This document shows positions 46,067 to 53,916 of a stretch of 64,000 nucleotides of DNA, piece by piece (position 1 is the first letter of the stretch; every line of letters begins with the position of its first letter). The stretch lies in contig JANQHT010000068.1 of assembly GCA_028282545.1 (NCBI GenBank), positions 1 to 64,000 of the forward strand, given 5' to 3'. The translations under genes were made by a program, and so were the position numbers. This stretch comes from Spirochaetales bacterium (lineage in GTDB: Bacteria > Spirochaetota > Spirochaetia > DSM-27196 > Alkalispirochaetaceae). The notes under the pieces are model-generated. The model had not been told where the DNA came from. It ran no database searches and was given only the letters and a program-made list of their open reading frames with translations.

Positions 46067-47271
46067 GTTTTTACCGGAACCACCACTGGAGCATCTGAAA
46101 CCAATGGGATTTTTGCGGTTGCCACGAACCCCGTATCGGAGAAATATGCAACTTCTCCACCCAGGGCGGATACGCGCTCCCGCATCCCGTGAAATCCGAT
46201 TCCCTCCTCAATTACTACCGCGCCGATGCCGTTGTCCCTAACGGAAACGTACATCCAGTCTCCGTCCTCCAGAAGGGTAACCGTCACATCAGTTGCTTGA
46301 CCGTGTCGAAACGCGTTGGTCAGACACTCCTGAACGAAATGGTAGATCGTAGCCGAAACAGAGGAATGCTCAACGCGGGCTCTCCGTGCGTGCAAACGAA
46401 GGGTGACTTTGACACCGGTTGAACGTTCATATACCTGTAGCAGCTCCTGTAGCGCTTCGACACCGTGCGGGATGCCGTGGTTCGGCTGTCGCAGCAATCG
46501 GAGAACCCGTCGTGTTTCAAAGTGCCCGGTCTGCGCTTGGTGTTTGATCGTTTGGACCAACTCCCTTGACTTCGTTGGATTCGAATCCAACGAAGATACC
46601 GCGGCCTCGCAAAGCATGGTGATGTTTGTGAGCGTGTAAGCGATATCGTCGTGGATCTCTCGGGTAATGCGATGACGCTCCTCTATCAATCCCTGCCGGC
46701 GGGCAAGCCGGGCGAAATCGCTGTATCCGACGTTGGCGTCGGAAAGGCTTTGCACAGTGGCTTCCAGATGGCCTAGACGCAATGCCGTTTCTTCGCTACG
46801 GTTGAGCAAACGCATCCATTTTCTCAAGAGATGCACGATTACCACACTCCATGCCGCAAGGGCAGCTACCGTGACTATACTCGTCGTACCGATAGCATCC
46901 CGAAATGGCGTGGATACGTTCATCAATACGGTGATCCAAGCGATATGGGCGGCCAAGGCGGCTGTGGCCATCGCCGGGCTTCCAAGCTCGCTTGTGATTA
47001 ATGCAATCAGAAACACCAACGTTAACCGCATCCCTATCGCGTCGGCGAACGGAATACTGGCAACCGAAATGAGGAACACTGCGATCAGGATGCATACCAG
47101 ACGGAGGGCCCGGAATGCCACTCCGAATACGGTCAACACGGCAACGATCGCCATCAATACCAGGAACTGTTGCATCCAATCCGATAAAAACCCTTGTCCG
47201 CGGATCGCAAAGAAACTCTGTACAGCGAGTGTGCCGACAACGACCACCGCCGCGGCGGATGAAGTTTTCAT
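46063..47271 (-). CDS. NarL-family sensor histidine kinase (HisKA_3)
   Basis: 402 aa. Five or six hydrophobic helices cover residues 1-150, with little periplasmic sequence between them, so it probably senses within or at the membrane. The HisKA_3 dimerisation domain holds the phospho-accepting His207 in EERHRITREIHDD. A HATPase_c domain follows (FVQECLTNAFRHGQATDV, VRDNGIG, EGIGFHGMRERVSALGG). It overlaps the response regulator by 4 nt. It heads the operon with the cyclase and ABC genes, so the transported compound may be its signal. Confidence 0.94.
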   Translation of the reverse strand: MKTSSAAAVVVVGTLAVQSFFAIRGQGFLSDWMQQFLVLMAIVAVLTVFGVAFRALRLVCILIAVFLISVASIPFADAIGMRLTLVFLIALITSELGSPAMATAALAAHIAWITVLMNVSTPFRDAIGTTSIVTVAALAAWSVVIVHLLRKWMRLLNRSEETALRLGHLEATVQSLSDANVGYSDFARLARRQGLIEERHRITREIHDDIAYTLTNITMLCEAAVSSLDSNPTKSRELVQTIKHQAQTGHFETRRVLRLLRQPNHGIPHGVEALQELLQVYERSTGVKVTLRLHARRARVEHSSVSATIYHFVQECLTNAFRHGQATDVTVTLLEDGDWMYVSVRDNGIGAVVIEEGIGFHGMRERVSALGGEVAYFSDTGFVATAKIPLVSDAPVVVPVKT

Positions 47272-47977: not shown

Positions 47978-48020
47978 GGGGCCTCTGACACTCAATCTCC
48001 ATTGATTGGTAGAATCCGGT

Positions 48021-48797
48021 ATGCCGTCCAAGCGTGCGTACTATCGCACCTCCGAAGTCGCACGCTCGGTAGGTGTGCACCCCAACACAATTCGCTGGTA
48101 CGAAAGTGCCGGGCTATTGGGCCCGATTGACCGCGACACCAATGGATACCGCCGGTTCTCCGCTGCGAATCTCGTAGAAGCGAAGCTTGTCTACCGCGCA
48201 ACGCGCGTAACATGGATGTCGGGAGTTGTCCGCTCGACGGCATTGGAGATCCTTGCACTCGTACGCGAGGGAGCGCTGGTTGAAGCGGCAACGCGGATCG
48301 ATCAACTGGTCGATCATCTGAACCGTGAGATCGCTCTCGCCCGCGAGGCGTTGGCCGTGATTGCGGAGTGGCTCTCAGGGTTCGGTGAGCTGCGTTCCGC
48401 TACAACTACACTGATTCCCATCCGGAAAGCCGCGCACATTACCGCGACCACGGCCGATCAAATTCGCAACTGGGAGCGAAACGGCCTGTTGATTCTCCCC
48501 CGCGATCGCCACAACGGCTACCGTGTATTCGGTGACCTGGACCTGTCGCGGCTCAAGGTCATCCGACTGTGCCGGTTGGCAGGGTACAGCATCACCGCGA
48601 TCCGGCGTCTGATGGCAGCGGTTGATCAGACCCCAGGCGGTACCGCTCTGGATCTGGAGCGCGTGGCAAACTGTCCCACTGAGGAAGAGAAATGGTACGA
48701 AACGTTCCCGACCGATGTGTGGATTTCAACATTGACACGGCATCGCGACACGATTGACGAGATGATTCCATTAATTGCGAAGTTGAAAACCCTCTAA
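48021..48797 (+). CDS. Regulator with two tandem MerR-type DNA-binding domains
   Basis: 258 aa from ATG 48021. Two MerR winged-helix domains occur in one chain. The first is residues ~5-70 (YRTSEVARSVGVHPNTIRWY, then ESAGLLGPIDRDTNGYRRF). The second is ~130-205 (IRKAAHITATTADQIRNWE, then RNGLLILPRDRHNGYRVFG). A helical segment joins them. MerR proteins normally dimerise to bring two domains together; here one chain carries both. The ABC-2 exporter genes begin 48 bp downstream on the same strand and are the likely targets. Confidence 0.88.
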   Translation: MPSKRAYYRTSEVARSVGVHPNTIRWYESAGLLGPIDRDTNGYRRFSAANLVEAKLVYRATRVTWMSGVVRSTALEILALVREGALVEAATRIDQLVDHLNREIALAREALAVIAEWLSGFGELRSATTTLIPIRKAAHITATTADQIRNWERNGLLILPRDRHNGYRVFGDLDLSRLKVIRLCRLAGYSITAIRRLMAAVDQTPGGTALDLERVANCPTEEEKWYETFPTDVWISTLTRHRDTIDEMIPLIAKLKTL

Positions 48798-50668: not shown

Positions 50669-52894
50669 CTAACCGTTCGCGTTTAGTTCGGTCAGGTAGC
50701 GGCGGTACTTCTTCGGCAGGAAGTGTTGTTGGAGGGCGAGATTGGTTCGATCCTCGATAGCGATGTGGCGGACGTAATCGCGCCATAGATTCTGCATCGC
50801 CTCATCGCCGCGGGTATCCGATTCGGCGGTCGTGTCGAACGGTGCTCCCTCGTCCGCCGAGCCAAAATGGAGATGGGTGCCGTCGTAGAAGGCAAGCTCG
50901 TGTCGTTTTCTGTCGATGATGTACCATCGCCCGGTGTGCATGCGCTCCACAAAGGAGGGCGCGATCACCGGCAGCAGGCGGCAATCGGGTTCCATTTCGG
51001 CGACCCACAGATCGTCCCCCCGTTTGACAAAACGGAGAATCCCCAGAAAGCGTTCCGCCTCATGAAGGAGGCGTCGCCGGCCCTCCTCGGCTCGGAGAAC
51101 CGCCTCGTCGAACGCAGGCGCGTCCAGTTGACCTCGGTCGATGGAGCCTCGCGCGAGAACCACGAGACTCCTCTCAATCCCGGGCAACTCCGATAGGAAG
51201 GCGTGATAGATCAACGTGTACCGGGAGCGGTTGCGTCCCAGGCGTCGGGCGACGCGAACCGCACCGGCACTGTCCGTTTCGATCAGGCGATCTTCGATGA
51301 AGAGGTCGTTCTGGTGGTCGGAGTGCCGATTCGTGGCAACGATCTCTTCAGGAATACGATCGACTCGTTCCACGACCGCATCGAAGAGGGTGAGGAGACC
51401 GGCAAAGGTACCGTCGTAGAGCAGGCGGTATCGTTTTGTAGGCGGCACGGTACCGATTTCGTTTTTCTTCACTCCCGCGAGAGAGGGGAGGGACGCGTGT
51501 GTTGCCGGACGGGCCGGCCGCGCACGTTGGTTGGCCGTCCGGGCCACAGGTCGCTTCCCGGTGGGCCGGTTCGGCGAGCGGCGCTCTCGTTGGTCCGGCG
51601 GGACCGCGGTATCGCTCGGTTCGTTTGGAAAGATAGAGAGTTGTCCCCACGCCGCAACGCTGCGCCCTCCTGTACCATCCGCCGTAGGTGGTGCTTCGTT
51701 CGTCGTCTTCCCGGCAAAGAGTGCCCGGAGGTGGTCCGGCGGTAGATCACACGCTTCGATACGGAGACCGTTGCAGGTGATGAAGTAGCGTGCCCGATTG
51801 AGCGCGATACCGAATCGTTTGAGCAGATCAAAGGTGAGACGTGTCCGCCGTCGTGTGTGAACGATCCGCCTGGCGCCCTGTAGCCCTATCCCCGGCACCC
51901 GCAGGAGGAGCCGATAGTCGGCGCGCTGCACGTCTATGGGAAAGAGGTCGTAGTTGCGCAGCGCCCAGGCAAGTTTTGGATCCACCTCGCTATCCATCTC
52001 CTCCTGGCCCTCGGTGAAAAGTTCCGCCACGTCGTAGTGGTAGAGCCGGATGAGCCAGTCCACCTGGTAGAGACGGTGCTCCCGTTGTAGCGGCGGGGAG
52101 TCCGCCGATGGTAGGCGACGGTCGGAACCGACCGGCATGTAGGCCGAGTAATAGACGCGGCGCATCGCGAGGCGGTTGTAGAGGTGTGACGCCAGGGTAA
52201 CGATCGTTCGGTCGCTCTCGGGGCTTGCACCGACGATGAGCTGGGTCGACTGGCCCGCGGGCGCAAAGGTCGGAGTGTGGCTCAGGCGTCTGTGATCCTC
52301 CTGCGTCTCCCGTAGCTTGTCCGCGAGGCGGCCCATCGTTCCAACGATGGCGCGCTTGGTCTTCTGTGGCGCCAAAGCGGTGAGGCTCTGTTCCGAGGGC
52401 AGCTCGATGTTGACGCTTATCCGATCGGCGTAGAGGCCCGCCTCGTTGACACATCGCTCCGAGGCGCCGGGTATCGCCTTGAGGTGGATGTAGCCGCCGA
52501 AGCCCTCATCCCGACGAAGCCGCCTGGCTACCGCTATGAGCCTGTCCATTGTGTAGTCTGGATCACCGAGGATGCCCGAACTGAGGAAGAGACCCTCGAT
52601 GTAGTTGCGCTTGTAGAAGTTGATGGTGAGATCGACGAGTTCCTGTACGGTGAACGTGCAGCGCCTGACGTCGTTGCTGCGTCGACTGACGCAGTAGGCG
52701 CAGTCGTAGATGCAATGGTTGGAGAAGAGGACCTTTAACAGGGAGACGCAGCGACCATCAGCGGCCCAGCTATGGCAAACACCCGCGGGCCGCGCTGCGC
52801 CGATGGTGCCGGCGCGAGCGCTCCCGCTGGATGCGCAGGACGCATCGTACTTGGCCGAGTCCGCGAGGATGGCAAGCTTGTCCGCCAGATCCAT
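50669..52894 (-). CDS. Radical SAM protein fused to a DUF4130 domain (DNA modification/repair-linked)
   Basis: 741 aa from ATG 52894. The N-terminal half is a radical SAM enzyme of the putative DNA modification/repair family. It has the iron-sulfur motif in NHCIYDCAYCVSRR and helix-hairpin-helix elements (LLLRVPGIGLQGARRIVHTR). After a low-complexity Arg/Pro-rich linker (about 415-480) the C-terminal ~260 residues match DUF4130 (YDGTFAGLLTLFDAVVE near its start and the ending LALQQHFLPKKYRRYL). In most bacteria these are two neighbouring genes; here they are one. The start codon directly follows a 30-bp palindrome and no ribosome site exists, consistent with a leaderless mRNA. Confidence 0.88.
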   Translation of the reverse strand: MDLADKLAILADSAKYDASCASSGSARAGTIGAARPAGVCHSWAADGRCVSLLKVLFSNHCIYDCAYCVSRRSNDVRRCTFTVQELVDLTINFYKRNYIEGLFLSSGILGDPDYTMDRLIAVARRLRRDEGFGGYIHLKAIPGASERCVNEAGLYADRISVNIELPSEQSLTALAPQKTKRAIVGTMGRLADKLRETQEDHRRLSHTPTFAPAGQSTQLIVGASPESDRTIVTLASHLYNRLAMRRVYYSAYMPVGSDRRLPSADSPPLQREHRLYQVDWLIRLYHYDVAELFTEGQEEMDSEVDPKLAWALRNYDLFPIDVQRADYRLLLRVPGIGLQGARRIVHTRRRTRLTFDLLKRFGIALNRARYFITCNGLRIEACDLPPDHLRALFAGKTTNEAPPTADGTGGRSVAAWGQLSIFPNEPSDTAVPPDQRERRSPNRPTGKRPVARTANQRARPARPATHASLPSLAGVKKNEIGTVPPTKRYRLLYDGTFAGLLTLFDAVVERVDRIPEEIVATNRHSDHQNDLFIEDRLIETDSAGAVRVARRLGRNRSRYTLIYHAFLSELPGIERSLVVLARGSIDRGQLDAPAFDEAVLRAEEGRRRLLHEAERFLGILRFVKRGDDLWVAEMEPDCRLLPVIAPSFVERMHTGRWYIIDRKRHELAFYDGTHLHFGSADEGAPFDTTAESDTRGDEAMQNLWRDYVRHIAIEDRTNLALQQHFLPKKYRRYLTELNANG

Positions 52895-52924
52895 AAAAAT
52901 ACTATACATATGTATAGTATTTTT
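52895..52924. promoter_or_regulatory. 30-bp perfect palindrome before the radical SAM gene
   Basis: The 15-bp half site ATGTATAGTATTTTT (52910-52924) is matched exactly by its complement at 52895-52909. The palindrome ends one base before the ATG and covers the -10 and spacer of the likely promoter. The centre ACTATACATATGTATAGT resembles LexA-type boxes in layout, though not in exact sequence. Confidence 0.75.
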
Positions 52925-52929
52925 TGCAA
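52901..52929 (-). promoter_or_regulatory. Promoter of the radical SAM gene, probably leaderless
   Basis: Minus strand TTGCAA, 17 bp, TATAGT, then six bases ATTTTT and the ATG. Transcription would start at or next to the start codon. Confidence 0.55.
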
Positions 52930-52983: not shown

Positions 52984-53916
52984 TTACGAGAAGAGTGTTG
53001 GATCGTTGTTCAGGAGGGTAGGCACCGTGAGTGAGAGTCCGCAAACCTCGTTTATGAGCTTCGCGAAATGGGTTACCAGCACCGGTGAGTTGAGCTCGTC
53101 CGGGTGATGCATAAAGAAGTAGATACGACGGATGCCGTTATCGAGCCACACTTTGATACGATTCGCCCAATCGTCCAACCGACTGTAGTCGGAGGGGTGA
53201 AGGTTGCCCCCCACGAATCGAATAAAGGCCTCGGGTACGGTGAGGCGCTGGTGAAGCACGTCGCGTCTGCCCGGCGTGTCGGTGATGACGGCGCCGACAC
53301 CGAACTCCCGGAGCATCGCAAAGGTTTCGTCGTAGACGCCGACATCGGCGAACCAGGCGGGGTGGCGGAACTCGACCGTGAGAGGGTAGCGATCTCTTGG
53401 GAAGGCTTCCAGGTAGGTTGATAGCGTATCGAACCCGGCGGGAGAGAACGTGGGCGGGAGTTGGAGAAAGAGCGTACCGAGATGGGGGCCAAAGCCGTCC
53501 ACGCCGCGGAGAAAGTCCGTTGTCAACCGCTCCGCTCCCTTGAGCCGCTGCCAATGGGAGACGCCCTGAAAGATCTTGGGACAGAAGAGAAAATCTCGCC
53601 CGGTCTGGGCGGCCCACCCCGCCATGCGTTCCGCCTGGGGCATCTGATGATAGGTGGCGTTCAGCTCCACGCTGTTGAAGTTCCCGGCGTAGACGCTGAG
53701 GAAGCAGGCCGATTTCGTGCCTCGCGGATAGAGCTGACCTATCCAGTCGCTTCGACCCCATTTTGCGCAGCCCAGAAAGAGGCGTTGATCCTTGGTGCCC
53801 GTCGGATTGACCCCTTCCGGCACGTGTGGCGTGGCCAGGAGTTGTATCGTGTCCGCGTGATCACCGGGGAGGCTCAGATCTAGGTCGTCGAGGTTCGCTA
53901 CCTTTCCGAAATCCAT
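52984..53916 (-). CDS. DUF72 family TIM-barrel protein
   Basis: 310 aa. The DUF72 core is clear: LFLGCAKWGRSDWIGQLYPRG, the NSVELNATYHQMP motif, the RDFLFCPKIFQGVSHWQRL strand, LGTLFLQLPPTFSP, PLTVEFRHPAWF and the C-terminal YFFMHHPDELNSP. The fold is a TIM barrel; the biochemical function is not known. An N-terminal extension of about 40 residues precedes the barrel. It is 90 bp upstream of the radical SAM gene on the same strand, but the palindromic promoter between them suggests separate control of the latter. Confidence 0.9.
   Translation of the reverse strand: MDFGKVANLDDLDLSLPGDHADTIQLLATPHVPEGVNPTGTKDQRLFLGCAKWGRSDWIGQLYPRGTKSACFLSVYAGNFNSVELNATYHQMPQAERMAGWAAQTGRDFLFCPKIFQGVSHWQRLKGAERLTTDFLRGVDGFGPHLGTLFLQLPPTFSPAGFDTLSTYLEAFPRDRYPLTVEFRHPAWFADVGVYDETFAMLREFGVGAVITDTPGRRDVLHQRLTVPEAFIRFVGGNLHPSDYSRLDDWANRIKVWLDNGIRRIYFFMHHPDELNSPVLVTHFAKLINEVCGLSLTVPTLLNNDPTLFS

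Follow-up and report, generated by a model that had tools for sequence, protein, structure and literature searches.

A probable LexA operator in the class Spirochaetia, at the putatively leaderless promoter of a radical SAM-DUF4130 gene

Error-prone polymerases form a conserved core of SOS regulons (PMC8565304). The LexA-bound operators that control such genes have been described in several lineages. In Escherichia coli and other gammaproteobacteria, the SOS box is TACTG(TA)5CAGTA (CTGT-N8-ACAG). In Leptospira interrogans, LexA1 is associated with the box TTTG-N5-CAAA (PMC3789691). In the Bacteroidota, two LexA motifs are known, CTAA-N5-TTAG and GGA-N5-TCC; the first is bound by a non-canonical LexA in EMSA, and COG1573-COG4277 are listed as SOS targets (PMC8565304). 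SOS regulation of the UDG/COG4277 pair is already published for organisms elsewhere in the bacterial tree (PMC8565304), and the regulatory principle is known.

What operator serves the class Spirochaetia? Our literature search for an SOS box in this class, with most subscription papers outside its coverage, returned the Leptospira motif only. Here we analyse a stretch of 64,000 nucleotides from a member of the Spirochaetales (the window), in which a long palindrome lies directly in front of a radical SAM gene. The features discussed below are these:

50669 to 52894, minus strand: radical SAM-DUF4130 fusion gene (TIGR03916 and TIGR03915), 741 amino acids
52892 to 52894, minus strand: start codon ATG, also the predicted transcription start of a leaderless mRNA, 6 nt past the -10 element
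52895 to 52924, no strand assigned: 30-bp perfect palindrome, AAAAATACTATACATATGTATAGTATTTTT, read directly from the sequence
52901 to 52918, no strand assigned: predicted LexA box, 18 conserved bp, ACTATACA-NN-TGTATAGT, recognised from class orthologues and SOS genes
52901 to 52906, minus strand: -10 element TATAGT, coinciding with the right half-site of the operator
52924 to 52929, minus strand: -35 element TTGCAA, with a 17-bp spacer to TATAGT
52984 to 53916, minus strand: DUF72 gene, the immediate upstream neighbour of the radical SAM gene on the same strand

We conclude that the palindrome is probably the LexA (SOS) operator of this organism, and we put the probability of this reading at roughly 0.87.

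The 741-residue protein matches TIGR03916 (rSAM_link_UDG) with 581 bits (cut-off 343.5; 1e-174) and TIGR03915/DUF4130 with 165.9 bits (cut-off 112.25; 1e-48). Because both curated models score above their cut-offs in one protein, the gene is confirmed as a radical SAM-DUF4130 fusion, as had been proposed from the window alone. We take COG4277 to be the radical SAM family of this gene. DUF4130 has been predicted to be an enzyme related to mutagenesis, and it is linked with SplB-like radical SAM proteins and with uracil DNA glycosylases (PMC3765255). That association is based on gene neighbourhood; the operator and promoter anatomy described here comes from the present work. Elsewhere in the same genome lies another copy of this radical SAM gene (G000:C42:18950-19657), 75-79% identical, fragmented and interrupted by an in-frame stop, which looks like a decayed paralogue. 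The window also encodes a MerR-type protein (48006-48797) of the fused-dimer kind, whose single chain holds two MerR DNA-binding domains; its gene adjoins ABC transporter genes.

The original prediction described, at 52895-52929, a perfect 30-bp palindrome, very unlikely to have arisen by chance, that covers the -10 element and spacer of a promoter TTGCAA-17-TATAGT. Direct reading of the sequence bears this out. TTGCAA-17-TATAGT occurs once on the minus strand of the window, the palindrome overlaps it, the 18-bp operator covers its spacer and -10 element, and the ATG follows 6 nt past TATAGT. No perfect palindrome in the window is longer; the runner-up, CTTCGTTGGATTCGAATCCAACGAAG, has 26 bp and lies at 46570-46595. 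Palindromes of at least 30 bp are expected about 1e-4 times in 64 kb at the composition of the window. AT-rich palindromes arise more readily than GC-rich ones, so that an accident in an AT-rich promoter has to be considered, but even at 80% AT the expectation is at most 0.006, and the same box stands in the same place before a 58%-identical orthologue in a relative (G032) and across the class. Conservation and expectation together rule out a chance palindrome.

The conservation is best seen in the promoters of orthologous genes. We sought the 18-bp core, ACTATACATATGTATAGT, in the organism's own genome and 60 relatives, allowing up to two mismatches. Matches were found in 24 of these 61 genomes, with a reversed-pattern control near zero. 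When the centre is relaxed (ACTATACA-NN-TGTATAGT) and at most one mismatch is allowed, 76 of 394 class genomes carry the box, and the reversed pattern again scores near zero. One genome of the class, G064, matches a plasmid of Borrelia turicatae at 100%, which identifies the class as Spirochaetia. The G032 orthologue has the exact core 5 nt from its start codon. A search of the class with TIGR03916 placed 31 genomes above the cut-off, and 30 promoters of class orthologues were fetched. Just upstream of the start, 27 of the 30 have a box with no more than four mismatches, and 26 of these no more than three. Choosing the best 18-mer within about 145 bp of each promoter slightly inflates the conservation; shuffles of the same segments, which control for this choice, almost never reach a box match. 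Positions C2, C7, G12, T13 and T18 are invariant in the 27 matching promoters, and most class orthologues have a TTGC-type -35 element at 17-18 bp. The palindromic site overlaps the promoter of the gene it is proposed to regulate, as an SOS box should. Diverged forms of the box are also seen, in several families, at genes of a more distantly related radical SAM subfamily.

Not all of the palindrome is conserved. The outer A/T arms, which extend the core to 30 bp, show no conservation in the orthologues, so part of the 30-bp length is incidental. This comparison shows the putative operator proper to be the inner 18 bp, 52901-52918.

The same comparison bears on whether the palindrome acts as RNA, either as a structured leader or by forming a hairpin or intrinsic terminator for the DUF72 gene upstream. 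The strand does fold well, forming a stem of 13 bp (z = -3.6 relative to shuffled sequences) with a run of T at its end. The stem, however, is almost all A-T, it draws on the unconserved outer arms, and what is conserved is an 18-bp core whose position relative to the -35 element, the -10 element and the start codon is fixed. Moreover, the predicted transcription start lies downstream of the palindrome, which would therefore be absent from the gene's own mRNA. We reject the hairpin or terminator as highly improbable.

Where does transcription begin? The 6-nt spacing and the standard distance from the -10 element to +1 put the start at the start codon, from which we infer that the gene has a leaderless mRNA with +1 at the first base of that codon. 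The promoter had been called apparently leaderless from the window alone, and comparison lends indirect support to this: in 16 of 28 class orthologue promoters the distance from the -10 element to the start codon is likewise exactly 6 nt. Leaderless mRNAs are reported to be common in Leptospira (PMC5243855).

The box is not confined to one gene. Relatives also carry it upstream of classical SOS genes: imuA (a weak RecA-like match), followed by imuB (IMS domain) and dnaE2; umuD (NF007621, 141 bits, cut-off 110); and dnaE-type polymerases (L236, L042). At another locus (L043), it lies 12 nt from the start of a DUF72 gene; the window gene that immediately precedes the radical SAM gene belongs to this family too.

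A search of the organism's own genome for the palindrome, proposed as a check of the original prediction, found just one near-perfect and one weak site besides that of the window, two or three sites in all. The first is the perfect site of the window. The second, ACTATACATATGTATAGA (G000:C74:39649-39666; L004 3650-3667), has one mismatch. It is flanked on one side by a type III DNA methyltransferase gene and on the other by a 65-aa ORF with an SDH-type serine protease gene; this is possibly an SOS-controlled defence-type locus. The third, with two mismatches (G000:C9:4482-4499; L003, L005), is upstream of a DUF1820 gene adjoining fpg/mutM. In relatives of the same family, one box is common to DUF1820 and a divergent imuA. 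A search of the own genome with a relative's ImuB as the query, run without a positive control on an assembly that is 86% complete, did not find imuB. The small number of sites and this negative both count against the LexA reading.

Which protein would bind the box? The genome encodes one LexA (G000:C116:18520-19119), which aligns with the LexA proteins of E. coli and Thermotoga maritima. It has the winged helix, the Ala-Gly cleavage site (VAAG) and the Ser/Lys dyad (GDSM serine, VTLKR lysine) of a LexA, with all of these motifs intact. It is the only PF00717 (S24 peptidase) protein found in the genome, and of nine further genomes examined, six likewise have LexA as their only such protein. 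A lexA match is present in 73 of 76 boxed genomes vs 260 of 318 unboxed ones (Fisher p = 0.001, in lineages that are not independent). Of the three boxed genomes without a match, two (G155, G257) have sites apparently inside genes and the third (G177) is 58% complete.

A different, non-LexA repressor might nevertheless own the box and control the imu cassette, umuD and the radical SAM gene. Two observations would suit such a protein. The first is that the main lexA and recA, which usually though not universally carry an SOS box, have none: no box was found in the 12.5 kb searched at the organism's own lexA locus, at the main lexA loci of relatives apart from scattered weak sites at a distance of about 1 kb, or in the 30 recA loci read. 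A feedback loop at the main lexA is accordingly rejected. The second is that the LexA recognition helix (SVKGAYDH) is not the same as in E. coli, so that its binding specificity cannot be read off. Across the class these helices mostly read ISVKGAYDHVKAL. In the large family f32, most of whose genomes lack the box, the two sampled LexA proteins read ISLRAVQDHISAL; a tie between this difference and the absence of the box is suggestive only.

A box at lexA is not a defining feature of an SOS operator, because lexA of L. interrogans serovar Lai is reported as not autoregulated (PMC3789691), like the main lexA here. In many genomes of the class, an ntrC-like response regulator gene immediately precedes lexA and overlaps it (for example L188 3512-5478), so that lexA may be transcribed from the promoter of that operon. 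Against a separate repressor stand the lack of a second S24 candidate in the genome, the distribution of lexA among boxed and unboxed genomes, and the second lexA genes of some relatives (L191, L292, L294, L190). These are preceded by related palindromes, ACCAGACATTTGTCTGGT in three genomes and GCTATACACTTGTATGC in G031, where there are two; in G022 and G031 the second lexA is directly upstream of imuA. The palindromes appear to be a diverged LexA2 box.

The behaviour of the orthologous gene in other phyla, where it carries known LexA boxes, is a further argument. We read the upstream regions of its relatives in named genomes. Five loci of Cellvibrio/Saccharophagus type (Cellvibrionaceae-type gammaproteobacteria) have CTGT-N8-ACAG, and one Clostridium has GCGAACATATGTTTG, a single mismatch from the Gram-positive box. 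In the Bacteroidota, CTAA-N5-TTAG is found at 24 of 60 loci, against 0.4 expected. No SOS box was found upstream of the gene in Moraxella, Psychrobacter and Neisseria, which are not known to have LexA. The related Acinetobacter is reported to be without LexA (PMC11332147). The SOS box in front of the gene is thus that of the local lineage, and LexA is therefore the natural ligand here too. A dedicated non-LexA repressor is, on balance, unlikely. The early guess of a damage-responsive, LexA-like regulator is well supported by the box at SOS genes and class orthologues and by LexA being the sole S24-type protein found.

On this reading, a LexA dimer on the box would block RNA polymerase. After DNA damage, RecA filaments would form and prompt LexA to cleave itself. 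Transcription from the freed promoter would then begin at the A of the ATG (+1), and the repair-type radical SAM enzyme would be translated from a leaderless mRNA.

What is new is a predicted LexA operator sequence that we have not found described for Spirochaetia, set on a predicted leaderless promoter. It offers a large class, the one that includes Borrelia, a concrete SOS-box sequence, in a phylum for which the Leptospira motif was the only one found described. Because its promoter carries the LexA box of the local clade, the radical SAM-DUF4130 enzyme emerges, on strong comparative evidence, as a core SOS gene that crosses phyla. The arrangement further points to a form of SOS control in which the operator and the -10 element of a leaderless promoter are fused. 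More tentatively, the class may combine an undescribed LexA box with a stripped-down SOS regulon in which lexA and recA are unboxed; in this organism the regulon may have shrunk to essentially one strong target, with the leaderless radical SAM-DUF4130 gene as its main dedicated SOS effector.

How does this site compare with the known operators? The LexA2-type boxes near imuA in related families, ACCAGACA-NN-TGTCTGGT, share with it the frame AC---ACA-NN-TGT---GT and precede the second lexA, but they depart from the consensus at 4 of 16 defined positions and are absent from the organism's own genome, which has a single lexA. The Leptospira system belongs to the same phylum but to another class, and its box differs in sequence and spacing and has recA among its targets. 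The Bacteroidota motifs likewise control the UDG/COG4277 pair and error-prone polymerases, but through another box and another LexA-like protein family (PMC8565304). In E. coli, lexA and recA are boxed, whereas here the main lexA and recA are not, and the inner half-site is ATACA/TGTAT here vs GTATA/TATAC there. The E. coli box is nevertheless like the window site in three respects: it is a palindromic operator over a sigma-70-type promoter, it has the same outer TACT...AGTA, and it controls error-prone polymerases.
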